Origin: Bacteroidales bacterium
Lineage (GTDB): Bacteria > Bacteroidota > Bacteroidia > Bacteroidales > F082
DNA length: 64,000 nt
Assembly (NCBI GenBank): GCA_017548125.1
Contig: JAFYNK010000012.1
Span: 1 to 64,000, forward strand
Direction of reading: 5' to 3'
Shown here: positions 53,924 through 63,975 of the stretch, in pieces
Layout of the letters: every line of letters begins with the position of its first letter
How positions within the stretch are numbered: the stretch's first letter is position 1
Notes under the pieces: model-generated
The model's input: the letters and a program-made list of their open reading frames with translations, nothing else
Databases searched by the model: none
What the model was told of the DNA's origin: nothing
Made by a program: the position numbers and the translations under genes

Positions 53924-54162
53924 TATTCTTTCCCCGCTTTATCCATAATTTTCAAAAGATTGCGCCGTTGTCTTCTACCCAAGCCGCAAAAATTCTCAAT
54001 CATCTCGCCAAGAACATCATGAAATTCTCTGTGTTCTCCTTCGAGCTTCTCTCCTTCTATAACTTCAACCCCTAGCATTTTCGCAACGCCAACTACCTCA
54101 ATCGCATTTAACTTGCTCAGTCGCTGAATAAATAGTTCAGCTTGTTTATCACTCTTACTCAT
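53923..54162 (-). CDS. Small hypothetical protein
   Basis: A 79-residue protein with a basic, helical end (GLGRRQRRNLLKIMDKAGKE), sharing a base with the next start and overlapping the upstream gene by four. The middle (VGVAKMLGVEVIEG) might be a small helix-turn-helix but is too short to say. It could act with either neighbour in DNA recognition. Confidence 0.55.
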   Translation of the reverse strand: MSKSDKQAELFIQRLSKLNAIEVVGVAKMLGVEVIEGEKLEGEHREFHDVLGEMIENFCGLGRRQRRNLLKIMDKAGKE

Positions 54163-55550
54163 CTCTTATTCTTCTCCCTTTCCAACTTATCACACATCTT
54201 ACATCTACTCGAAAGTCCATCTTTAGCCCTGCTTTTTCGCACAAAATTAACAGGATCGCGCAAAAGCACTCGGCCGCATTTAGAACAAGTCTTAAATTCT
54301 TCTTCAAAAGGCAAACTCTGTACAATTTGAACGTGGAGAGCGGCGGCGCCATTTATCTCAGGAATAATTTTTTGCCTAAAAATAGTCGAAATATAATTAG
54401 CCGTATAACTCTTCCCATATTTCCTATTAATAAGCCGCGCAATATCCTGATTCTTCTCCTTATCCATCTTCAACTGTAAGATTTCCCTCTGTATTTCTGT
54501 CAAATTAGCCTCGGCCGCATAATAAAAAAATGTCTGAATCAATCTCGAAGTATTCCTCAGTAATCTCTGCCCTTCTTTTTCCAACTCCTGATACTCCAAC
54601 AATAACTGATAAACCATCTCCAAATCTCTAAAATCAAACCAACGTCGAAATTCTTGATGGCCGGCCGCTCTCTCCTCTTTAACTGCGTTTTCCTCAGCTT
54701 TCTTCTTCCAAAAAATCTTCGAAAAATAAAGAAGTTCTTCCTCTCCAAAATTCCTCGGCACCAACTCCTCTCTCTTCCTCCAAAATCCTTCGTTTTCCTC
54801 TCCAATCAACCCCAACGGAAAAACAGGAACTTCCTCTTCAAAAACGTCAATTTCCTTGAAAAAGCTTACTTCTTCCTCAATTTCTTGGGTTCCCGCTGAA
54901 GTCTCCGGCAAGGTTCTTCTACAAATTCCCTCCAAAAATGAATCCCTCAACGTATACTGCTCTTTCCTCAACTCCACCAACAAATGCTTCAGCTTCAAAT
55001 ACTTATACTGTCCAAATGTGCTGGTCTTCTTCCTAACCTTTTCAATATCTTCTTCAGAGAAACGTTGGAGTAAAGAATCGCGCGGCGGCTTCTCTCTCTT
55101 CCCAGTTCTTTCCTCATAAAGGTTAATGCACAGTTCAATGTAGTCGATTCTCTCCCACAACTCCTCAAAAACTGCCAAAAGATGGTCAGGCGCACTCTCT
55201 CTCGTTTTCTTTCTCGAAAACGTCTCCTTAACCTTTCGAGTCTGCGGCACCTCACCAATCTTCTGAATTGTCCCCTCAATAAATGTTGGACACTCAATTT
55301 TCTCGTCGAGAGAGTCTACATTTTGTGCGGTCCATGTAGCATAGCGGCGAGGCAATTCAACTTCCTTTCTCTGGTCAACATTGAGACCATCTTCGTCTTT
55401 TCCCCACAGAATATAGTTGCCCATCGTCTCAAGCTCTTCTTCAGTAGGCGGGACTTTGGCGAAAGTCTCACCCCTCACATATTCATTTATAAAATCGGAA
55501 CGCTCAGTTGATGTAGAGAGCGCCCAGTCCAAATTTAGTCTATTTTTCAT
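54159..55550 (-). CDS. Sigma-region-4-like helix-turn-helix and zinc-finger protein, first late gene
   Basis: A 463-residue protein. Residues about 360-410 (LTEIQREILQLKMDKEKNQD, then ARLINRKYGKSYTANYISTI) have the shape of a sigma-factor region 4 or similar winged helix-turn-helix. The end has CSKCGRVL and CKMCDKLEREK, a C-x2-C...C-x2-C zinc ribbon close to those of the preceding two zinc proteins. The N-terminal half is helical and charged without a recognised domain. It is the first gene after the strong late promoter and overlaps the next start. Its coding strand is purine-rich and GC-islands such as GGCCGGCCGC occur. It may be a late-gene regulator or part of the terminase; both are inference. 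Confidence 0.6.
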   Translation of the reverse strand: MKNRLNLDWALSTSTERSDFINEYVRGETFAKVPPTEEELETMGNYILWGKDEDGLNVDQRKEVELPRRYATWTAQNVDSLDEKIECPTFIEGTIQKIGEVPQTRKVKETFSRKKTRESAPDHLLAVFEELWERIDYIELCINLYEERTGKREKPPRDSLLQRFSEEDIEKVRKKTSTFGQYKYLKLKHLLVELRKEQYTLRDSFLEGICRRTLPETSAGTQEIEEEVSFFKEIDVFEEEVPVFPLGLIGEENEGFWRKREELVPRNFGEEELLYFSKIFWKKKAEENAVKEERAAGHQEFRRWFDFRDLEMVYQLLLEYQELEKEGQRLLRNTSRLIQTFFYYAAEANLTEIQREILQLKMDKEKNQDIARLINRKYGKSYTANYISTIFRQKIIPEINGAAALHVQIVQSLPFEEEFKTCSKCGRVLLRDPVNFVRKSRAKDGLSSRCKMCDKLEREKNKR

Positions 55551-56053: not shown

Positions 56054-56551
56054 ATGTTAAAGCGGACTCATGAAGTAGTAGGGAGTTACCAGAAAATGGA
56101 AGGACGGGGCGGTCTGTATCTTATCGGGGATAAGGTCGGGAACGGTGGCAACCTCGCGGAAGCGTGTGCTTCTGAGGGCTACGGCTACGGCTACGGCTTC
56201 GATAAAGATTGCATCCCTTACGACAAAGGCTCTGATATTGAAGAGCTGAAAATGAGCGTTAAAAGCTCCGGAGCGTCACTCGCTTGTATCTATCGCAATA
56301 GCAATACGGCTGAGGACTTCAAGAGTATTATCGCTGAGTATTTCGCTAATGTTCACTCTGTTCGGTGGTGCTACGTTGTATTGATTGATAACACGGCTAA
56401 CCTGTATGAAATGAACGCTGAAGAGTTCAAAGAGTTCTTAATGAACTGGGCTGGAATGAGTAAAGAATCCGGAAAAGAGTGCTACAAAATCAAGTTCAAG
56501 AAAACTTCCGGAATAATGGTCAAATGGTTAGAAGAAAAGGTGGAGGAGTAA
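56054..56551 (+). CDS. Hypothetical protein, first gene of the right-arm small-gene cluster
   Basis: A 165-residue protein. The N-terminus is Gly-rich (GRGGLYLIGDKVGNGGNLAEA) followed by EGYGYGYGFDKD; the rest is alpha/beta (SSGASLACIYRNSN, WCYVVLIDNTANLYEMN). Codon use is far less AT-rich than in the replication genes. The start overlaps a dyad that could act as a translational or transcriptional operator. AAGGAAGGAAGG precedes the ATG. I do not recognise the family. Confidence 0.6.
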   Translation: MLKRTHEVVGSYQKMEGRGGLYLIGDKVGNGGNLAEACASEGYGYGYGFDKDCIPYDKGSDIEELKMSVKSSGASLACIYRNSNTAEDFKSIIAEYFANVHSVRWCYVVLIDNTANLYEMNAEEFKEFLMNWAGMSKESGKECYKIKFKKTSGIMVKWLEEKVEE

Positions 56552-56688: not shown

Positions 56689-56716
56689 TTGACAAAATCC
56701 CGGGATATGTTATAAT
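56689..56716 (+). promoter_or_regulatory. Early promoter with palindromic spacer
   Basis: TTGACA (56689-56694), 16-base spacer, TATAAT (56711-56716). The spacer contains ATCCCGGGAT (56697-56706), a 10-bp palindrome related to the GCCCGGGC punctuation sites further right. Confidence 0.8.
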
Positions 56717-57291: not shown

Positions 57292-57372
57292 CGCCCGGGC
57301 AAGGTTAGTCTATGCTAACTATTATACCAAATAATACCAGAAAAAAAATAATAGAAATTTTCTTTGAATCAC

Positions 57373-57401
57373 TTGACTTTTTTAGAAAAGTAGGTTATAA
57401 T
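57373..57401 (+). promoter_or_regulatory. Early promoter
   Basis: TTGACT (57373-57378), 17-base spacer, TATAAT (57396-57401). Confidence 0.85.
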
Positions 57402-57436
57402 AATTATAGAAAGAAGGAAAGAAAGAGGTGAATAAA

Positions 57437-57664
57437 ATGTTAGCAATCTGTTATAAGAGAGTAGAACCCATCGTATATAATGAGGGTACGAAATACGAAA
57501 GAAGAGAAGATGAATTTCTCGCATACTATGTTGGAAATGATAGAGCAAAAGCAGAAGCAGAAGCAGAAAGACTTACGAGAGAAAAACCCGAAAGATGGTT
57601 TGATGGAACTCCCGCTCCCGAAGTTCTCTTCTACTTCATCGAAGAACAGGAAATGATTTGTTAG
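57437..57664 (+). CDS. Small hypothetical early protein
   Basis: A 75-residue protein starting at ATG 57437 (site AAAGAGGTG). It opens LAICYKRVEPIVYNEGTKYE, followed by a helix with repeated AEAEAE and an acidic end. Its stop lies inside a hairpin. No recognised function; size and setting fit host-takeover genes. Confidence 0.65.
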   Translation: MLAICYKRVEPIVYNEGTKYERREDEFLAYYVGNDRAKAEAEAERLTREKPERWFDGTPAPEVLFYFIEEQEMIC

Positions 57665-57679
57665 AAATCATTTCCATTT
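57649..57679 (+). terminator. Intrinsic terminator overlapping the stop codon
   Basis: Eleven-base-pair stem GGAAATGATTT / AAATCATTTCC (57649-57659 and 57665-57675) followed by ATTTT. Confidence 0.7.
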
Positions 57680-57706
57680 TGCCCGGGCGACACAGAAAAA
57701 AGTTCG

Positions 57707-57716
57707 GCGGATCCGC
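57707..57716. repeat. Palindrome GCGGATCCGC and neighbouring hairpin
   Basis: A 10-bp GC-rich palindrome sits 19 bases after GCCCGGGC. Nearby GTTTCGG...CCGAAAAAAC (57731-57757) can form a further hairpin before the promoter. Confidence 0.5.
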
Positions 57717-57768
57717 ATAATTCTAAAAAAGTTTCGGTATTTTTCCCGAAAAAACTTTTATTTTGGGG

Positions 57769-57797
57769 TTGACATTCCTAAAATAAAGTGGTAAAAT
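57769..57797 (+). promoter_or_regulatory. Early promoter with GGGG upstream of -35
   Basis: GGGGTTGACA with TTGACA at 57769-57774, 17-base spacer, TAAAAT (57792-57797). Drives three overlapping small genes (57834, 58010, 58170). Confidence 0.8.
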
Positions 57798-57833
57798 AAT
57801 TATAGAAAATAAGGAAAGGGAAAGGTAAATGAA

Positions 57834-58007
57834 ATGAGTATTATCAACAATCTTCCGAAATATGTAACTGAATATAATTATGTTGTGGCAAGAGTTACTA
57901 ATGGGGAATTATGGTTCTATGGAGCATTTAACTCTCTGGAAAAAGCGTATGACGCAGTTGAAGAAGTTAATGGTTGTATGTTCGATATCAGAAATTGGGG
58001 GTGTTAA
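57834..58007 (+). CDS. 57-residue hypothetical protein
   Basis: Encodes a 57-residue protein with many aromatic residues (KYVTEYNYVVARVTNGELWF) ending in WGC. Site AAAGGGAAAGG lies upstream, and an earlier ATG there leads straight to a stop, which fixes this start. Transcribed with the following two genes. Confidence 0.7.
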   Translation: MSIINNLPKYVTEYNYVVARVTNGELWFYGAFNSLEKAYDAVEEVNGCMFDIRNWGC

Positions 58008-58009
58008 AA

Positions 58010-58153
58010 ATGAAGAAAATTTTCCCTGTAATTAGTACAGGCTTTCTGATTTGGGTGGGTATCAGTTGGTTAGAAATCTGTTCTAAAAATCTTTCACCAA
58101 ATCCCGTTTACGCAAACTGGAACTTTTTTGAAATTTTATTGCACTTGTTTTAA
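58010..58153 (+). CDS. 47-residue membrane protein
   Basis: Starts two bases after the previous stop; GGGGGTG in the end of that gene is its ribosome binding site. One transmembrane segment (FPVISTGFLIWVGISWLEI) begins at residue 5, followed by NLSPNPVYANWNFFE. I recall the same layout (MKK, one helix, SPNP-type turn, W-N-F) in small proteins of other gut phages. It could act at the host membrane; role unknown. Confidence 0.7.
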   Translation: MKKIFPVISTGFLIWVGISWLEICSKNLSPNPVYANWNFFEILLHLF

Positions 58154-58169
58154 TAAAGGAGAAAAAATT

Positions 58170-58331
58170 ATGGAAAAAATCACAGTAAATACCGCAAAAG
58201 GTTTTGATGTTATGAGGGGTCAGAAAATCATCAAACACTTCGACACAAAAGAAGAGGCCCAAAAATCCATTGATGGGAAACACGGATATTATATCCGTTA
58301 CTGGATAGAACAGGAAGAAGGTGATGAGTAG
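58170..58331 (+). CDS. 53-residue hypothetical protein
   Basis: Starts at ATG 58170 (site AAAGGAGAAAAAATT). Sequence KGFDVMRGQKIIKHFDTKEEAQ is a small beta-alpha pattern, perhaps half of a small domain, with an acidic end. Last gene of a three-gene unit. Confidence 0.65.
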   Translation: MEKITVNTAKGFDVMRGQKIIKHFDTKEEAQKSIDGKHGYYIRYWIEQEEGDE

Positions 58332-58358
58332 AACGGCAATGCCGTTCTTTTTTTTATG
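58331..58358 (+). terminator. Intrinsic terminator
   Basis: GAACGG-caatg-CCGTTC followed by nine T; the stem can extend to GAACGGCA/TGCCGTTC. Starts in the stop codon. Confidence 0.85.
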
Positions 58359-58426
58359 GAATAAGTTAGTCCAAACTAACTCGGCGCCGGGTGCTTTTCC
58401 AGTTCTTTCCTATTGCCCGGGCGGGC

Positions 58427-58444
58427 ACTTTAGTACATTAAAGT
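58427..58444. promoter_or_regulatory. GCTTTAGT-type dyad
   Basis: ACTTTA-GTACAT-TAAAGT lies between a GCCCGGGC site and the A/T tract of the next promoter. Related dyads are at 56046-56063 (over a start codon) and 60202-60219. Confidence 0.6.
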
Positions 58445-58494
58445 ATTAAAGGAATAAAGTGGCAAAAAAAAATAAAAAAAATTGAAAAAAGGGG

Positions 58495-58523
58495 TTGACA
58501 TTTTCTTTGATTCATAGTATACT
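58495..58523 (+). promoter_or_regulatory. Early promoter with GGGG upstream of -35
   Basis: GGGGTTGACA (TTGACA 58495-58500), 17-base spacer, TATACT (58518-58523) preceded by TAG. Confidence 0.85.
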
Positions 58524-58559
58524 ATAATCAAGAAAGGACAAAGAAAAGGAGAAAAAACA

Positions 58560-58943
58560 ATGACAAGAACAGAATTCAGAACCAAAGCAGAAAGAGTTTA
58601 CATCATGCTCGACAAGAAAAGTGAAGACTTCGCACTTGCGAAAGTAGGACTCACCGCAGACACACTTTATAATCGTTGTCACGCTTATAAGACAGGAAAT
58701 CCACTTCTTCAGTTAGTAGCGGTTGCAGAAATCAGAAAGAATCAGACACTGAAGAAAGTTGAAAAGATGTTTCACGAAGCACTGGGAAATGACTTTGAAC
58801 ATCTTTGCGGAGAGTGGTACATCATTCAAGACAAAGAAACCATCAAAGCAATCGAAGAAAATGGTTTCAAGTTCTTCGGAAAACTCAATTACAGAATCAA
58901 GAAAAGAGAAATGATTAACTCCACAATCGTCAACCTTTGGTAA
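58560..58943 (+). CDS. GIY-YIG-like (T5orf172/MUG113-type) nuclease-domain protein
   Basis: A 127-residue protein matching the compact T5orf172 pattern: VYIMLDKKS, then FALAKVGLTADTLYNRCHAY (arginine in the second helix), TGNPLLQLVAV, KVEKMFHEAL with Glu-x3-His in the usual place and GEWYII near the end. GIY-YIG domains of this type occur in phage and viral proteins, sometimes as nucleases. Here it stands alone in a small-gene cassette with its own promoter and terminator, so it might attack host DNA or serve as a free nuclease; activity not shown. Confidence 0.65.
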   Translation: MTRTEFRTKAERVYIMLDKKSEDFALAKVGLTADTLYNRCHAYKTGNPLLQLVAVAEIRKNQTLKKVEKMFHEALGNDFEHLCGEWYIIQDKETIKAIEENGFKFFGKLNYRIKKREMINSTIVNLW

Positions 58944-58965
58944 ACAAAGGTTGACTTTTTTTTTC
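58929..58965 (+). terminator. Strong intrinsic terminator
   Basis: Eleven-base-pair stem GTCAACCTTTG / CAAAGGTTGAC (58929-58939 and 58945-58955), loop GTAAA containing the stop codon, then nine T. GCCCGGGC follows at once. Confidence 0.95.
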
Positions 58966-58998
58966 GCCCGGGCGCCGAAAAAATTTTTCAAATAGGGG

Positions 58999-59026
58999 TT
59001 GACAAATCACTAAAAGGTGGTATAAT
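58999..59026 (+). promoter_or_regulatory. Early promoter with GGGG upstream of -35
   Basis: AGGGGTTGACA (TTGACA 58999-59004), 16-base spacer, TATAAT (59021-59026). Confidence 0.85.
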
Positions 59027-59056
59027 TAAAGTAGGAAAAGGAAAGGAGAAAGAAAA

Positions 59057-59482
59057 ATGAAGATTTGGTTTGATATGGACGGTACGATTGCTAATCTCTA
59101 TGGAGTAGAAAACTGGTTGGATAAACTGATGAATGAAGATGCTACACCTTATGCTGAAGCGAAACCGCTCATTAGAATGGCAACGCTGGCAAGAATGTTA
59201 AACAGACTTCAGCGTGAAGGCTATGAAATCGGAATTGTAACTTGGTTAAGCAAAGGGGCTACGGTTCAGTATCAAGAAGCAGTAGCAAAGGCTAAAAGAG
59301 AATGGCTCGAAATTCACTTGAGAAGCGTAAGATTTGACCACATCGACATTCTTGAGTATGGAGTTCCGAAGCAGATTGGAAGAGATGGAATCCTCTTTGA
59401 TGATGAAGAAAGAAATAGAAAGGCTTGGGGTGATGGAGCATATGATGTAGACAACATCATTGAAATTCTGAAAGCATTATAG
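59057..59482 (+). CDS. HAD-superfamily phosphatase, possible nucleotidase
   Basis: A 141-residue HAD protein. Motif I WFDMDGTIANL at residues 4-14 holds the nucleophile Asp; TW(L)SK near 67 fits motif II; FDHIDILEYGVPK and ILFDDEERNR near 113 give the Lys and acidic motif IV. Size and the small cap fit phage-type 5'(3')-deoxyribonucleotidases. It could alter nucleotide pools of the infected host; substrate unknown. AAAGGAGAAAG precedes the start. Confidence 0.75.
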   Translation: MKIWFDMDGTIANLYGVENWLDKLMNEDATPYAEAKPLIRMATLARMLNRLQREGYEIGIVTWLSKGATVQYQEAVAKAKREWLEIHLRSVRFDHIDILEYGVPKQIGRDGILFDDEERNRKAWGDGAYDVDNIIEILKAL

Positions 59483-59491
59483 AAAAAGTAG

Positions 59492-59516
59492 AGGGCGCGA
59501 GGTCGTCCTTTCTTTT
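59492..59516 (+). terminator. Weak intrinsic terminator
   Basis: Stem AGGGCG / CGTCCT (59492-59497 and 59504-59509) followed by TTCTTTTT. Confidence 0.55.
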
Positions 59517-59611
59517 TATATGTGGGTTAGTTCCCACTAACTTGACTGCCCGGGCGCCGTCTATGATCATAGAATAAGTAAAAAAAAATAATATTTTTTT
59601 CTGAAAAGGGG

Positions 59612-59640
59612 TTGACTTTTTTATAAAACTATGTTATATT
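59612..59640 (+). promoter_or_regulatory. Orphan early promoter without a gene
   Basis: GGGGTTGACT (TTGACT 59612-59617), 17-base spacer, TATATT (59635-59640), followed by a leader with AAGGAAAGGA but no ORF before a second promoter at 59707. Looks like a cassette that lost its gene; a short RNA is an alternative. Confidence 0.75.
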
Positions 59641-59706
59641 ATATATACAAGGTAAGGAAAGGAAAAAGTCAGCCAAGAAAAAAAATAAAAAAAATAAAAA
59701 AAAGGG

Positions 59707-59735
59707 TTGACAAACTCCAAAACTTATGCTATAAT
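59707..59735 (+). promoter_or_regulatory. Early promoter for the winged-helix gene
   Basis: AGGGTTGACA (TTGACA 59707-59712), 17-base spacer, TATAAT (59730-59735) with TGC before it. Confidence 0.85.
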
Positions 59736-59782
59736 AAAGATGTAAGATAAAGAAAAACAAAAGAAAGGAAAAGGTAAGAACA

Positions 59783-60127
59783 ATGTTACAGAGAGAATTC
59801 TACAACGCAATCGCTAATGGCACAATGAATGAGGAAGTTATGACTTTTGCGGCTGAGGCTATCACAAAGATGGACGCTCGCAACGCTGCGAGAAAGGCTA
59901 AGCCGTCCAAGACCGCTATCGAAAACGCTCCTATCAAGGAAGCAATCCTCGCTCACCTCACGGAAGTTGGAGAGGCTATGACGGAAACTGACCTCGGTCT
60001 GGCTCTCGAAATCACTCACAACAAGGCTGGCTCTCTCGCTCGTCAGTTGGTCGCAGAAGGAAAACTGTCTGTGGAAGAGGTAAAAATTCCGAAGGTCGGT
60101 AAGAGAAAGGCATACAAGATTGTGTAG
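59783..60127 (+). CDS. Winged-helix-like DNA-binding protein
   Basis: A 114-residue protein. The N-terminal 45 residues (QREFYNAIANGTM, EEVMTFAAEAITKMDARNAARKAK) are helical and basic; residues 50-114 form a winged helix (APIKEAILAHLTE, then TETDLGLALEITHNKAGSLARQL, then a beta wing VEEVKIPKVGKRKAYKIV). Codons are optimised and much richer in GC than neighbours. The C-terminal half resembles the protein coded at 5657 in layout, and another gene starting at 63976 begins with the same REFY. Could regulate the cassette cluster or alter host chromatin. Confidence 0.65.
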   Translation: MLQREFYNAIANGTMNEEVMTFAAEAITKMDARNAARKAKPSKTAIENAPIKEAILAHLTEVGEAMTETDLGLALEITHNKAGSLARQLVAEGKLSVEEVKIPKVGKRKAYKIV

Positions 60128-60139
60128 TCTTACAGGAGA

Positions 60140-60166
60140 GGGACACTATGTGTCCCTTTTCTTTTA
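60140..60166 (+). terminator. Intrinsic terminator
   Basis: GGGACAC-TAT-GTGTCCC (60140-60156) followed by TTTTCTTTT. Confidence 0.85.
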
Positions 60167-60201
60167 AGCCGAAGTTAGCCGTGGCTAACTCGCCCGGCAT
60201 C

Positions 60202-60219
60202 GCTTTAGTGCGGTGAAGT
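60202..60219. promoter_or_regulatory. GCTTTAGT-type dyad
   Basis: GCTTTAGTGCGGTGAAGT, an imperfect dyad of the same family as 56046 and 58427, again just before an A-rich stretch and promoter and just after a GCCCGGC variant. Confidence 0.5.
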
Positions 60220-60237
60220 GATAAAAGGGAAAATTAT

Positions 60238-60266
60238 TTGACTTTTAAGAAAATTTTTGTTATAAT
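60238..60266 (+). promoter_or_regulatory. Upstream of two tandem early promoters
   Basis: TTGACT (60238-60243), 17-base spacer, TATAAT (60261-60266) with extended TGT. The GGGG box seen elsewhere is absent. No gene lies between this and the next promoter. Confidence 0.7.
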
Positions 60267-60285
60267 AAAATTAGAAAAAAAGTTG

Positions 60286-60314
60286 TTGACAATCCTTTTA
60301 TTATGTGGTATACT
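60286..60314 (+). promoter_or_regulatory. Downstream tandem early promoter
   Basis: TTGACA (60286-60291), 17-base spacer, TATACT (60309-60314). Confidence 0.8.
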
Positions 60315-60344
60315 TTATATAGATAAAGGAAAGGAGATAATAAA

Positions 60345-60404
60345 ATGAATGATTTTGAAAATGTAATTATTGAGGCAGAAACGTTAGCCAGTTGTATAAA
60401 ATGA
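60345..60404 (+). CDS. 19-residue leader peptide ORF or truncated gene remnant
   Basis: AAAGGAGATAATAAA places a good ribosome binding site before ATG 60345, giving a 19-residue peptide ending ETLASCIK. Its stop overlaps the AAAAGGAGTGAG site of the next gene by a few bases. Either a leader that couples translation to 60421 or the remains of a deleted gene; peptide itself has no recognisable role. Confidence 0.4.
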   Translation: MNDFENVIIEAETLASCIK

Positions 60405-60420
60405 AAAGGAGTGAGTTTTA

Positions 60421-60777
60421 ATGGCAAGTTCGCAGAAGAAATTAAATGACACACTGCGTGAGAATTTTTTACAAAGAATTATTGAGTTACTGGAATTCGA
60501 TGAAGAAATTCTTCGCACAGGCGCAAATGAAATTGCAATTCCTTGCGTTGACTCTGAACAGAATGAAAAATTTGTTCAGATTGTAGTAAAAGTTCCCACA
60601 GGTTCTCGTGATGGGGAACCGTATGATGGTTACTCTATGGCAGAGGATTACAAGTTAAAACTCGAAGAAAAAGAAAGAAAGAGAAAGGAAAACGAGGAAA
60701 AAAAGAGGAAAAAAGTCGAAAGGGATAAAAAAATTAGAGAAAAAAAAGAAGAAATGAGGGCAAAACGGGAAGCATAA
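60421..60777 (+). CDS. Small protein with charged coiled-coil tail, paralogue A
   Basis: A 118-residue protein. Residues 1-75 form a domain with NEIAIPCVD, VVKVPTGSRDGEPYDGYSMAEDY; the rest is a Lys/Glu coiled coil. It is clearly related to the protein coded at 62632 (shared PTGSRDG-x-PYDGY-x-MAEDY), but its codons are AT-rich. Role unknown; charged tails often mediate DNA or protein binding. AAAAGGAG precedes the ATG. Confidence 0.75.
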   Translation: MASSQKKLNDTLRENFLQRIIELLEFDEEILRTGANEIAIPCVDSEQNEKFVQIVVKVPTGSRDGEPYDGYSMAEDYKLKLEEKERKRKENEEKKRKKVERDKKIREKKEEMRAKREA

Positions 60778-60794
60778 CTCCCGTTTTTTCCTTT
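60762..60794 (+). terminator. Intrinsic terminator overlapping the stop codon
   Basis: AAAACGGGA / TCCCGTTTT (60762-60770 and 60779-60787), loop containing TAA, followed by TTCCTTTT. Confidence 0.85.
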
Positions 60795-60836
60795 TATTGG
60801 AAATGCCCGGGCCGCAGAAATTTTTTATTTTAGGGG

Positions 60837-60865
60837 TTGACAAACACACAACTTTCTGTTATACT
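60837..60865 (+). promoter_or_regulatory. Early promoter with GGGG upstream of -35
   Basis: AGGGGTTGACA (TTGACA 60837-60842), 17-base spacer, TATACT (60860-60865), extended TGT. Confidence 0.85.
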
Positions 60866-60891
60866 AATTATAGAAGAAAGGAAGCGAAGAA

Positions 60892-61362
60892 ATGAAACTG
60901 TTAATTATCTTTATCGTTTTATCTATTGTTAATGTTGTATTTTCTACTATACGTTCTCTCACCACTATTAAAAGTGGTAAGTCGGTGGCGAGTTTAGTTA
61001 GTGGTGGATACTTTGCCTTTTACAATATCGTTTTAATTTATACGGTAATGGACTTTCCGATGTGGCAGAAATGCGTTATCACTTTTGTTTGTAATGTCAT
61101 CGGGGTTTGGACTGTTAAGTTCATTGAAGAGAAGATGAGAAAAGACAAAATGTGGAAAGTTGAAGTAACCATTCCCACAAAATATGCAAATGCAGTTGAC
61201 TTTTATTTAGAAAAAATTCCACATAGTTATATTACCATCAGTCCAAAACATACCTTATTTAATTTTTATTGTGACACAAAAGAAGAAACTCAAAAAGTTA
61301 CTGATGTTTGTAACCAATACGAGGCAAGATATTTTGCAAGTGAATGTCAGAAAATTTTCTAA
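60892..61362 (+). CDS. Membrane protein, UPF0316/DUF5698-like with soluble C-terminal domain
   Basis: A 156-residue protein. Three transmembrane helices span about residues 2-20, 35-52 and 60-80; the pattern STIRSLTTIKSGKSVASLVSGGYFAFYNIVLIYTV followed by FIEEKM is close to the DUF5698 membrane domain of the YebE/UPF0316 family, and the soluble end (residues 90-156, KVEVTIPTKYANAVDFYLEK) fits the small domain attached there. The function of the bacterial family is not well known. A phage copy suggests action at the host membrane. AAAGGAAGCG precedes the ATG. Confidence 0.6.
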   Translation: MKLLIIFIVLSIVNVVFSTIRSLTTIKSGKSVASLVSGGYFAFYNIVLIYTVMDFPMWQKCVITFVCNVIGVWTVKFIEEKMRKDKMWKVEVTIPTKYANAVDFYLEKIPHSYITISPKHTLFNFYCDTKEETQKVTDVCNQYEARYFASECQKIF

Positions 61363-61375
61363 AATTCTCCTTATT

Positions 61376-61406
61376 CGGCGCGGAGTTACCCCAAAACTTC
61401 GCGCCG
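61376..61406 (+). terminator. Very stable hairpin without T tract
   Basis: Twelve-base-pair stem CGGCGCGGAGTT / AACTTCGCGCCG (61376-61387 and 61395-61406). Followed by TCCTTTCC only, so a classic intrinsic terminator is doubtful; it may block the ribosome, stabilise the 3' end or slow polymerase. Confidence 0.6.
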
Positions 61407-61459
61407 TCCTTTCCTAAAAATGGAATTGCCCGGGCGAAAAAAATTTTTTCATTTAGGGG

Positions 61460-61488
61460 TTGACAAAACAATTAGTTAATGGTATAAT
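61460..61488 (+). promoter_or_regulatory. Early promoter with GGGG upstream of -35
   Basis: AGGGGTTGACA (TTGACA 61460-61465), 17-base spacer, TATAAT (61483-61488). Confidence 0.9.
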
Positions 61489-61514
61489 TAAACCATAGAA
61501 AGGAAGTGAGAAAA

Positions 61515-61712
61515 ATGTTGATGTTGTTGAAAGATTGGAAAGATACTGTTCGTGAAGGAATGAAGTTAATCCAAAAAGGTTGCAGAGAAAATGAAGAATG
61601 GAATGGTTGTGCAGAATGTCCTTTTGATGTATACTGTACCATTCTGATGGAAGATGATACTATTGAAGATGAAGTGAGTAAATTTGAGGGAATTAGATGG
61701 TTGCCAGATTAG
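61515..61712 (+). CDS. Small cysteine-containing hypothetical protein
   Basis: A 65-residue protein (ATG 61515, site AGGAAGTGAG). CRENEEWNGCAECPFDVYC around residues 23-41 holds four cysteines, a possible metal site, followed by an acidic end. The pattern C-x2-CPF-x3-C is seen in small phage proteins; role unknown. Confidence 0.65.
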   Translation: MLMLLKDWKDTVREGMKLIQKGCRENEEWNGCAECPFDVYCTILMEDDTIEDEVSKFEGIRWLPD

Positions 61713-61720
61713 GCGGCCAT
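61697..61720 (+). terminator. Hairpin at the 3' end of the 61515 gene
   Basis: ATGGTTGCC / GGCGGCCAT (61697-61705 and 61712-61720, two GU pairs) with the stop codon in the loop. No T tract follows; GCCCGGGC starts three bases later. Confidence 0.5.
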
Positions 61721-61774
61721 TTGCCCGGGCGCCGAATTCGATCATCATAGAATAAAAAAAATTTGAAAAAGGGG

Positions 61775-61803
61775 TTGACATCTTCCACAAAGTATGGTAT
61801 ATT
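61775..61803 (+). promoter_or_regulatory. Early promoter with GGGG upstream of -35
   Basis: AGGGGTTGACA (TTGACA 61775-61780), 17-base spacer, TATATT (61798-61803). Confidence 0.85.
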
Positions 61804-61835
61804 ATATACATAAGAAAGAGAAAGGAAAAACTGAA

Positions 61836-62480
61836 ATGGAAAAATATTTAATTATCGACACCGAAACCACTAACTCAATTGATGACCCTATTTGCTATGA
61901 CATCGGCTTTGCCGTCATTGACAAGAACGCTCACGTTTATGAGGCTCATAGTTATGTGGTTGCAGATATTTTTCTGGATAAGGAGCTGATGAAGTCAGCC
62001 TACTTTGCCGACAAAATCCCTCAATATTGGGAAGAAATTAAAGAGGGAAAAAGGCTTCTGCGTAGGTTTAAGACAATCCGCTTTATCATCTATGATATTT
62101 GCAAACAATATAATATTAAAAGAGTTTTTGCTCATAATGCAAAGTTCGACTCCCGCTCACTCAACCTCACCCAACGCTTTTTAACATCCTCCAAATATCG
62201 TTTCTTTCTTCCTTTTGGGGTTGAGTGGTGGGATACTCTGAAGATGGCGAGAAAAATTCTCAAAAAAGACGATGAGTATGGAAGTTTTTGCTATGAAAAT
62301 GGGTATATGACTTCCCAAAACTCTCGCAGATATACCGCAGAAATTCTTTACAGGTTCATTACTGGCGATAATTCTTTCGTCGAAAGTCATACTGGACTGG
62401 AAGATGTTCTGATTGAGAAAGAAATTATGCGATTTTGTTTTGAGAGAAATGAAGAAGTCAATGGTCGTTTGTGGGAGTAA
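61836..62480 (+). CDS. DnaQ-like DEDDh 3'-5' exonuclease
   Basis: A 214-residue exonuclease starting at ATG 61836 (AAAGGAAAAACTG). ExoI motif IIDTETTNS at 5-13 (D-x-E), ExoII-like VFAHNAKFDSRSL near 110 (Asp in AKFD), and ExoIII SHTGLEDVLIE near 187 with the general-base His and last Asp. Such enzymes proofread for DnaE-type polymerases; the polymerase at 12976 lacks an internal exonuclease. It is separated from that gene by 45 kb and lies in an early cassette, so RNA decay or host-DNA degradation are alternative roles. Confidence 0.85.
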   Translation: MEKYLIIDTETTNSIDDPICYDIGFAVIDKNAHVYEAHSYVVADIFLDKELMKSAYFADKIPQYWEEIKEGKRLLRRFKTIRFIIYDICKQYNIKRVFAHNAKFDSRSLNLTQRFLTSSKYRFFLPFGVEWWDTLKMARKILKKDDEYGSFCYENGYMTSQNSRRYTAEILYRFITGDNSFVESHTGLEDVLIEKEIMRFCFERNEEVNGRLWE

Positions 62481-62505
62481 CCCACATTCGACCTTTGTAG
62501 ACTCG

Positions 62506-62517
62506 CGCCGGCGGCCG
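62506..62517. repeat. GC-rich palindrome CGCCGGCG in the place of GCCCGGGC
   Basis: CGCCGGCG (62506-62513) overlaps CGGCCG (62512-62517). It lies between a GTGGG/CCCAC hairpin (62471-62485) and a TCTATGATCATAGA palindrome, where the other cassettes have GCCCGGGC. Confidence 0.6.
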
Positions 62518-62570
62518 ATTCTATGATCATAGATCAGGGCGAAAAAAAATTATTTTTTTCTAAAAAAGGG

Positions 62571-62599
62571 TTGACATCTTCCCCACAGTATGCTATACT
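62571..62599 (+). promoter_or_regulatory. Early promoter with GGG upstream of -35
   Basis: AGGGTTGACA (TTGACA 62571-62576), 17-base spacer, TATACT (62594-62599), extended TGC. Confidence 0.85.
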
Positions 62600-62631
62600 G
62601 TATACAGAGATAAGGAAAGGAGATAAACACT

Positions 62632-62991
62632 ATGGCTAATTCCACCAAGCAGGCACGTGACAATGTGCGTTCTCAGTTTATGCTGATTGTCGGCAACTTC
62701 CTCGAAGAGAGAGGGGAAGAGGTCTTGTTGGTAGGCTCGAATGAGTATGCCGTTCCCGTTGTGCGGAATGATGGTGAGGAAGACTTCCTCGTGCTCACCT
62801 TCAAGATGCCGACAGGCTCTCGTGATGGTGACCCTTACGATGGGTACGCCATGGCGGAAGACTACGCCCTCAAATTGAAGGCGAAAGCCGAGAAGGCGAA
62901 AGCCGCCGCCGAAGCCAAGGCGAAGAAGCAGGAGCGTGACCGCAAGATGCGGGAAGCCAAAGCCGAAGCCAAGGCGAAGAGAGAGGGGTGA
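62632..62991 (+). CDS. Small protein with charged coiled-coil tail, paralogue B
   Basis: A 119-residue paralogue of the protein coded at 60421; both share PTGSRDG, PYDGY and MAEDY and end in a long Lys-rich coiled coil. Here the tail is Lys/Ala/Glu (KAEKAKAAAEAKAKK) and the DNA is about 65 percent GC over 62881-62940, against about 33 percent in the paralogue (my counts). It has its own promoter and terminator. AAGGAAAGGAG precedes the ATG. The paralogues may have arrived from differently composed genomes. Confidence 0.75.
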   Translation: MANSTKQARDNVRSQFMLIVGNFLEERGEEVLLVGSNEYAVPVVRNDGEEDFLVLTFKMPTGSRDGDPYDGYAMAEDYALKLKAKAEKAKAAAEAKAKKQERDRKMREAKAEAKAKREG

Positions 62992-63006
62992 CCCTCTCTT
63001 TTTTCC
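62981..63006 (+). terminator. Intrinsic terminator overlapping the stop codon
   Basis: GAGAGGG-gtga-CCCTCTC (62981-62998) followed by six T. Confidence 0.9.
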
Positions 63007-63064
63007 TTCAAGAGTTAGTTGAGGCTAACGGCCGCCCGGGCCGAAAAAAAATTACGAAAAGGGG

Positions 63065-63093
63065 TTGACAAACCACATCAAATGTGGTATCAT
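63065..63093 (+). promoter_or_regulatory. Early promoter with GGGG upstream of -35
   Basis: AGGGGTTGACA (TTGACA 63065-63070), 17-base spacer, TATCAT (63088-63093). Confidence 0.8.
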
Positions 63094-63123
63094 AATTATA
63101 GTAAAAGAAAGGAAGTGAGCGTA

Positions 63124-63282
63124 ATGAAGAGAACCTATTTCTGTCCTTCCGCCGACATTGAGTGTCCTTATTGTGTCGGTTTGGAGTATGAATGTGTTAT
63201 TGGTAATCCCGAAGACGAATGTACTGACTACTACTACTATATGGTAGATATGTACGGAAAGGATTTTGATGATGAGTATTAG
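63124..63282 (+). CDS. 52-residue cysteine-rich protein
   Basis: Starts at ATG 63124 (AAAGGAAGTGAGC). FCPSADIECPYCVGLEYECV holds five cysteines in the first 24 residues, then Tyr and Asp-rich (DYYYYMVDMYGKDFDDEY). Small metal-binding protein likely; function unknown. Its end overlaps the next start. Confidence 0.65.
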   Translation: MKRTYFCPSADIECPYCVGLEYECVIGNPEDECTDYYYYMVDMYGKDFDDEY

Positions 63283-63421
63283 ATTAGCGACTCCTTGCGA
63301 CTGCGAAGGCATTTGTCCTTATGAGTCTGAACAATGGGCAGATTGTGAGTACTGGTGTGGAGCAGAAGAACCGCAAGATGACCCCACAATTTGGGAAGAA
63401 GAAGACGACTACCCCTTTTAG
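63272..63421 (+). CDS. 49-residue cysteine-rich acidic protein
   Basis: Begins inside the end of its neighbour (ATG 63272, stop of the neighbour at 63280-63282). CDCEGICPYE and CEYWCG form a five-cysteine pattern, then an acidic tail. Overlap-coupled with 63124, so the two may work as a pair; no function recognised. The stop lies in the loop side of the terminator. Confidence 0.65.
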   Translation: MSIRLATPCDCEGICPYESEQWADCEYWCGAEEPQDDPTIWEEEDDYPF

Positions 63422-63438
63422 TAGTCGTCTTTTTTTAT
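63404..63438 (+). terminator. Intrinsic terminator overlapping the stop codon
   Basis: Stem GACGACTAC / GTAGTCGTC (63404-63412 and 63421-63429), 8-base loop, then seven T. Confidence 0.9.
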
Positions 63439-63525
63439 CTGTGAGTTAGCCATAACAAACTGCCCGGGCGATTCATGAATCAGTCTGCCCGGGCACTTCC
63501 AAATTTTACCAATTTTCAAGTTTTT

Positions 63526-63563
63526 TTCCAGTAAAAATTTTCCAGATCTTCCAGTAAAAATTT
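63526..63563. repeat. Direct repeat TTCCAGTAAAAATTT
   Basis: Copies at 63526-63540 and 63549-63563; an identical 15-mer is at 5540-5554, running into the -35 box of the 5657 gene. A shorter match (TTCCAGTAAA) lies at 55917-55926. Confidence 0.85.
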
Positions 63564-63699
63564 CCCAAAAATTCCAAAATTTTCCAGGACGCCGCCGTCT
63601 AAGCCGACGTCAAATTTCCCGCAACGTCAAATGCCCGGGCGCACCAAATTTTACCAGATTGCAAATTTTAAAAAGCTGCAAATTTCCATTTGTATCAAA

Positions 63700-63853
63700 C
63701 AGCTGCAGCTGGAAAAATTTTCCATATATAAAAACAGCTGCAACAGCTGGGAAATTTTACCAATTCACCGCAGCTGCGATCTGTGGAAGTTTCACTTACG
63801 TTGAGGGCGGCCGCCCACAAATTTTCCCAAAAATCAAATTCTAAAAACAGCTG
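63700..63853. repeat. Cluster of six CAGCTG palindromes
   Basis: CAGCTG begins at 63700, 63706, 63735, 63744, 63771 and 63848; the first two form a 12-bp palindrome CAGCTGCAGCTG and 63769-63778 is CGCAGCTGCG. An AGCTGC half site is at 63674. Spacers are A/T tracts. The arrangement looks like an iterated protein-binding array. Confidence 0.75.
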
Positions 63854-63860
63854 CGAAAAC

Positions 63861-63889
63861 TTTAAATTTCCTCAAATCTTTAGTATACT
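63861..63889 (+). promoter_or_regulatory. Possible promoter for the last, partial gene
   Basis: TATACT (63884-63889) preceded by TAG as in other early promoters; the -35 position (63861-63866) holds only TTTAAA. A hairpin TGAGAGAG/CTCTCTCA (63902-63926) and a smaller one CCGAC/GTCGG (63942-63960) lie in the leader, so transcript folding may control it. Confidence 0.5.
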
Positions 63890-63975
63890 ATATATAGAAA
63901 GTGAGAGAGAGATACTGACTCTCTCAAGTAAAAAAGTAGCGCCGACGGCTTCACAGTCGGAGAAAGAGGAACATC

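Follow-up and report, generated by a model that had tools for sequence, protein, structure and literature searches.

A GC palindrome at the seams of a phage early gene cluster: probable target sites of an undescribed phage protein with restriction-enzyme-like features

The window analyzed here, i.e., bases 1-64000 of a 65,253-base contig (JAFYNK010000012.1) in the assembly of a Bacteroidales bacterium (GCA_017548125.1; 2.73 Mb, 97 contigs), carries an early gene cluster in which the 8-bp GC palindrome GCCCGGGC (hereafter, the word) is repeated between genes. The copies are probably the targets of an undescribed, restriction-enzyme-like protein of the phage, 165 aa in length, which is encoded just upstream of the array (56054-56551, plus strand). 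A preliminary description of this DNA had listed a binding site for a phage-coded regulator or roadblock among the possible roles of the palindrome, and this role is supported by the association of gene and word, the predicted restriction-endonuclease fold of the protein, the dyad-symmetric flanks of the site, and the covariation of a protein residue with the type of word; taken together, these sequence patterns make recognition of the palindrome by the head-gene protein likely. No known system tested fits all features of the array and the gene. The contig belongs to a large phage, as indicated by homologues of DNA polymerase III alpha, DnaB, primase, RecJ, topoisomerase II, NrdD, terminase and portal; the nearest GenBank phages to its terminase are Alicyclobacillus phage KKP_3916 and Geobacillus virus E3 (42-43%).

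The array in the window

The preliminary description had reported twelve perfect copies of the word, all between genes and none in the first 57 kb, at a density far above the chance expectation, and a recount agrees on every point. There are exactly 12 perfect copies, between 57293 and 63640, and none elsewhere in the 64 kb; the expected number in the whole window is 0.05, and none of 100 dinucleotide shuffles reached 12. The whole-genome count that had been proposed as a check found no copy in the rest of the 2.73 Mb assembly, and CCCGGG occurs only seven times in the assembly outside the phage contig. All 12 copies lie outside open reading frames (ORFs), with 39% of the array span being intergenic; it should be noted that ORFs were crudely predicted and that all intergenic counts rest on these predictions.

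Short genes follow one another in the early cluster, and most of them are accompanied by a strong match to a TTGAC/TATAAT promoter and by a terminator-like hairpin. The word is present at most of the seams, usually as one copy, with the terminator before it and an A/T tract after it. Its placement ahead of promoters, described previously, was also borne out: a strict sigma70-type promoter match lies no more than 150 bp downstream of 9 of the 12 copies, for example, at 57373-57401 (plus strand) downstream of the first copy, with further matches starting at 57769, 58495, 58999, 59612, 61460, 61775 and 63065. The distance from the word to the -35 element is variable and without helical phasing (Rayleigh p 0.65-0.99 for 142 distances pooled over all 16 GC palindromes in 26 records), and for this reason a model in which the site binds an activator was dropped.

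Arrays in related phages

Relatives were collected by a terminase scan (55 loci), an early-gene scan (7 loci), and a search for the word-plus-promoter pattern, which gave 109 stretches; few of these are AT-rich with many copies, and the remaining ones look like chance matches in GC-rich contigs. We read 35 phage contigs whole or in large part, which together with the window make 36 records. At least four copies of GCCCGGGC are present in 20 of the 36 records, the window included, ten of these 20 having been chosen through the word itself. Large relatives carry such an array in an early cluster, too; their terminases, where found, are 33-96% identical, and the word reaches phages with terminases only 33-49% identical to that of the window (G086/G087, G089, G093 and G088). 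In each relative, the array is one cluster, the array of G088 being split over two contig ends (17 and 3 copies). Random placement in relatives, the outcome that the preliminary description had named as contrary to its view, was not observed: 190 of the 230 copies in 21 records lie outside ORFs, whereas the intergenic share per array span is only 22-45%.

In two relatives, G072 (22 copies) and G084 (4 copies), such slots hold GGCCGGCC instead of GCCCGGGC; in other relatives, the GC islands built around CCGG are less regular, and in some they are missing. As further candidate array words, GCGGCCGC and GGCGCGCC were considered and rejected: they are frequent in several relatives, but mostly within ORFs and spread across the genome, the exceptions being GGCGCGCC in G077 (5 of 7 copies intergenic) and in G063 (6 of 14). 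A literature search for GCCCGGGC in phages returned nothing relevant in the library searched, and other searches returned analogues only.

The gene at the head of the array

The protein encoded at 56054-56551 belongs to family A, which together with a homologous family B forms a superfamily of proteins of 126-188 aa. The PD-(D/E)XK-like residues of the window protein are E36, D61 and S68-x-K70. Among 31 aligned members, which diverge to about 14% identity, D61 and K70 are invariant, E36 is conserved in at least 90%, and the position two before the lysine is mostly S or Q, so that the acidic residue(s) and the (E/Q/S)xK motif of the PD-(D/E)XK fold are present. A structure model of the window protein (predicted local distance difference test score 95.1) weakly resembles restriction endonucleases, e.g., HinP1I, and restriction endonucleases or MutH make up 21 of the 26 rows in the structural listing; a fold search with family B gave no clear match. 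The family had no significant match in Pfam (8 members scanned) or in NCBIfam and PHROGs (31 members), no related sequence was found in the PDB, and in GenBank phages the superfamily is almost absent, with one weak match for a B protein and none for one A protein. The superfamily is undescribed, and a restriction-endonuclease fold is predicted for the window protein.

Methyltransferases of PF00145 and PF01555 were detected in none of the 35 relative records, many of which are fragments (the scan did not take in the window contig), so the cognate methyltransferase of a Type II restriction-modification system was not found in the relatives. This result does not favor the protected or modified site of the preliminary description, although methylation is invisible in these data. 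A named host lead is offered by L405 (CADCFX010000001.1), from a metagenome-assembled genome labelled uncultured Erysipelotrichaceae RUG14620, in which a family-A nuclease-like gene has four GCCCGGGC nearby.

Association of the gene with the word

We screened protein families occurring in at least 5 of the 36 records against the presence of the word, and the family of the 56054 protein ranked first (14 of 20 word-bearing versus 2 of 16 other records). The superfamily as a whole occurs in 24 of the 36 records, including 18 of the 20 with at least four words; G090 and G092 have arrays without a superfamily gene, and both arrays reach the contig end. Of the 55 loci found by terminase, 23 include 7 kb or more of the early side; three or more words occur in 8 of the 15 that carry the gene and in 0 of the 8 that lack it. 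In a 35-row terminase tree set, the corresponding numbers are 20 of 28 with the gene and 0 of 7 without it (Fisher p 0.001), where the set was partly picked by word or early gene and the p value ignores both kinship and choice. The sister pair G067/G069 differs in gene and word together.

A reverse search by the protein alone yielded at least three GCCCGGGC in 27 of 55 contigs outside those already read, compared to 0-4 of the 55 for the other 15 GC palindromes (the 55 contigs include a few copies of one phage). GC islands with a CCGG core number 7-16 per 8 kb in the 24 gene-bearing records and 1-11 in the 12 others, among which G090 and G092 have 11 and 8, respectively. In 15 of 20 tabulated records (G078, G079, G083 and G088 were left out of the table), a superfamily gene lies upstream of every word, within 1.6 kb, and points into the array, and in 18 of the 20 at most one word lies upstream of the gene.

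Symmetry of the site and covariation

Across 375 copies, the flanks of the word are mirror images: A is rare at -1 (9 copies) and -2 (25), and T is rare at +9 (6) and +10 (26), T being common at -1, where A is almost absent. The substitute word GGCCGGCC likewise avoids A at -1 (3 of 52 sides). The central pair is the least tolerant of change, with central base-pair variants near background (1.0-2.7 times). Beyond about 3 bp, the flanking sequence differs between copies, i.e., information is about zero until the promoter A-tract. We infer that the sequence read by the protein may be symmetric, about 10-12 bp long and built around CCGG.

In an unbiased scan of family B columns against word class, the top column was the residue three positions after the catalytic lysine, which is K or R in 33 of 41 proteins at arrays with a CCCGGG core and in 0 of 7 at arrays with a GCCGGC core (deduplicated; Fisher 9e-5). 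On a tree built without this column, the word class changes five times; of the four independent supported pairs, about 2.7 agree with the covariation and none is opposite, numbers too small for significance. The second-best column, a residue of the RGxGY loop, was rejected as the specificity reader, being contradicted by L395 and L396.

Gain and loss of cassettes

The window was compared slot by slot with two close relatives, G060 and G061. The copies at 57681-57688, 59548-59555, 61723-61730, 63487-63494 and 63633-63640 are exact in both; those at 58415-58422 (ACCCGGGC in the relatives), 60805-60812 (GACCGGGC) and 63034-63041 differ by one or two letters, and the slot aligned with 61428-61435 is missing. 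The remaining copies are at 57293-57300, 58966-58973 and 63462-63469. The degenerate copy, the substitute and the promoter-spacer version mentioned in the preliminary description were all recovered, as GCCCGGCA (60192-60199, plus strand), as a GC island containing GCCGGC (62504-62517, plus strand), the aligned slot of which is GCCCGGGC in G060 and G061, and as CCCGGG inside a promoter spacer (56699-56704).

The copies at 58415 and 58966 are the left and right edges of a cassette (58423-58965, plus strand) consisting of a promoter, a gene (58560-58943) with a T5orf172 domain, and a terminator-like hairpin. The entire cassette is missing in both G060 and G061, where the junction is a single CCCGGGCG. 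The T5orf172 domain belongs to the GIY-YIG clan; an 80% identical copy of the gene is present in G067. Insertion of this cassette may be self-driven, because T5orf172 genes are described as homing endonucleases (PMC10448857).

The idea that the word is a boundary for cassette recombination, which the preliminary description had raised, has this one clean case in its favor, but breakpoints do not generally follow it: of 106 ends of blastn high-scoring segment pairs (HSPs), 8 lie 10 bp or less from a word in one or the other of the aligned sequences, a count that has no computed background. A few HSP ends fall exactly on the word (G080/G091 and G094/L390). Most breaks are elsewhere, and sharp breakpoints at the word were rejected as a general rule; break repair could shift junctions into flanking homology.

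Interpretation and alternatives

We tentatively prefer, at somewhat less than an even chance, the reading that GCCCGGGC is the recognition site of the putative nuclease encoded by the head gene, and that cutting or nicking there would let co-infecting relatives exchange cassettes. The protein would recognize the word at the seams of the early cluster, would cut or nick at these seams and not inside genes, and repair of the break would move whole promoter-gene-terminator cassettes between co-infecting relatives. Cleavage or nicking is favored over mere binding because of the invariant catalytic-type residues, and break-driven exchange fits cutting at seams, the one gain or loss of a cassette at the word, and the location of the gene at the head of the array. 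Cleavage or nicking by the protein of its own phage DNA, with repair moving whole cassettes, is the weakest part of this proposal. The phage would have to survive breaks in its own DNA, for which timing, low activity, nicking, dependence on two sites or modified DNA could account. Some CCGG-family enzymes need two sites at once (PMC4081073), and such a requirement could be one way in which activity is held back. A bolder version, which we regard as doubtful, is that the phage is self-restricting: a rare cutter would head the early genes, with its own 8-bp site at the seams, in a natural restriction-cloning of cassettes, and enzyme and site would be switched together (GCCCGGGC to GGCCGGCC). If the proposal is true, it would explain in physical terms how phage early genes are turned over as modules, and it would add a new family of nucleases that are very small, cut rarely and vary naturally in specificity. 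Binding alone would still put a restriction-enzyme fold to unusual use, in a regulator whose sites number a dozen or more in each genome.

Several observations weigh against cutting or against recognition itself. In L142 and L144, the gene is present and the array is absent. The K/R rule is broken by several proteins of the CCCGGG class, including the family B proteins of G060/G061, and by the family A protein of the window. Kinship could inflate the association counts, and kinship-corrected tests are short of power. The HSP ends in general do not support exact junctions at the word. Finally, self-protection is unexplained without a methyltransferase, and for this reason a non-cutting operator or insulator stays a close rival.

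This rival, in which the head-gene protein, or its complex, binds the palindrome without cutting it, and the copies act as stoperator-like operators, road-blocks or insulators between early units, is in our view rather unlikely, but it draws on the same recognition evidence as the preferred reading. It avoids the problem of self-damage, the word follows a terminator and precedes a promoter, and the lack of a fixed, phased spacing from the promoter suits a road-block or insulator more than an activator; on the other hand, a pure binder would not need the D and K that are invariant across the aligned members. Less likely still, the palindrome could be the operator of another phage regulator, the nuclease-like gene being a mere neighbor inherited with the early region. 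Several more palindromes are bound to the arrays, which makes an operator set for early regulators plausible, and the tree shows few independent changes common to gene and word. Conversely, among the families found in 5 or more records, no other follows the word so closely, a search by protein alone recovers the word in about half of the contigs, and a residue of the protein covaries with the word type.

The word could also be a mere seam, i.e., a hitch-hiking scar or a short recombination anchor of shuffled promoter cassettes that no protein reads. The exact cassette junction and the few HSP ends on the word fit such a seam, whereas the dyad-symmetric constraint on the flanks, the lack of sequence common to the copies beyond about 3 bp, and the location of most breaks elsewhere do not, and we consider it very unlikely. 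Even less credence can be given to a generic GC clamp that shields AT-rich promoters from adjacent strand opening: in some relatives the slot is indeed filled by GC-rich islands of other sequence, but a clamp needs neither a particular palindrome nor a base-specific flank rule, whereas one exact palindrome dominates each array, its central-pair variants are near background, and T is preferred to A at -1. Equally implausible is that the protein is the restriction half of a restriction-modification system directed against DNA of competing phages or the host, with its own sites protected by methylation; the predicted fold is what such a system would have, but neither methyltransferase family was detected in the 35 relatives, and absence of the word from the assembly outside the phage contig leaves no host target.

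Comparison with known systems

The PeSL elements, credited to Arbiol et al. 2010, are reportedly mobile promoter/stem-loop cassettes in T4-type phages. As in that case, the early promoter-gene-terminator cassettes described here come and go between relatives, with promoter and terminator delimiting the genes gained or lost; junctions at the shared element amount to one clean case and the HSP ends counted above. Here, unlike in PeSLs, terminator and promoter have a GC palindrome of fixed sequence between them, and the cluster is headed by a nuclease-like gene (Arbiol et al. 2010 is cited in PMC4177764). The array resembles mycobacteriophage stoperators in having many copies of one short intergenic site, presumably with a phage protein as the reader. 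Stoperators are asymmetric sites bound by a prophage repressor, whereas the word is perfectly palindromic, has symmetric flanks and is limited to a single early cluster, and no stoperator-type repressor was identified. HIP1-type palindromes are spread across the whole genome, in contrast to the word, which is confined to the early cluster (for example, in G087, 16 copies are inside 8.5 kb of a 109 kb contig).

Homing alleles normally lack an intact target, whereas the word-bearing genomes that encode the protein hold 3-20 intact putative targets. The likeness to phage homing endonucleases is in nuclease genes located at boundaries of genetic exchange and in competition of co-infecting phages, and the families described in the accessible parts of PMC10448857 and PMC11620839 are HNH and T5orf172, not this fold. 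Type II restriction endonucleases with CCGG-core sites and those like HinP1I and MspI share with the head-gene protein the predicted fold, the (S/Q)xK site and the CCGG core, SgrAI being a known 8-bp CCGG-core enzyme (PMC4081073). The proteins described here differ in their size, in having no methyltransferase partner found, in the location of the sites in their own genome, and in showing no detected sequence similarity.

Other elements and neighboring genes

The inverted repeat GTTAGN6CTAAC occurs five times in the window contig, always within the array (57304-57319, beside the word, and 58365-58380, 59526-59541, 60174-60189 and 63014-63029), and AT-rich inverted repeats adjoin the word. There are 129 copies in 31 of 48 arrays (including those of G088, L377 and G072), and the changes in the stem (T-A, C-G, T.G) suggest a hairpin or a symmetric operator. 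Two other palindromic elements were seen in relatives. For CGAACNNNNGTTCG, there are 79 copies in the 48 arrays, compared to 0.4 in mononucleotide shuffles; they occur in 16 of the 48 (among them G085, L391, L369, G074, G091, G072, G064 and G063), and none is in the window. Every copy lies inside the array stretch in the four relatives checked, and we take the element to resemble the Firmicutes LexA/DinR box. For TTGTNAANNNNTTNACAA, presumably similar to the Rex redox-repressor box, 41 copies were found in 13 of the 48 arrays (among them L391, G089, L381, G086 and G083), compared to 0.2 in shuffles.

Adjoining the early cluster, a 463-aa protein is encoded at 54162-55550 on the minus strand; it weakly matches Lar-like proteins and a family of phage sigma factors. 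The genetic code of the window and its closest relatives looks standard; in G063, G074, G062, G066, G068, G070, G088, G089, G090 and G093, TAG is probably reassigned, because coding density increases when TAG is read as a residue (from 0.53 to 0.87 in G068), the array gaining less than the remaining sequence in all six records tested. The gene-poor stretch at 63520-63900 of the window contains many CAGCTGC and CCAGTAAAAATTTTCC repeats around and past the last words, and CAGCTGC repeats are present in G063 and G072, too.

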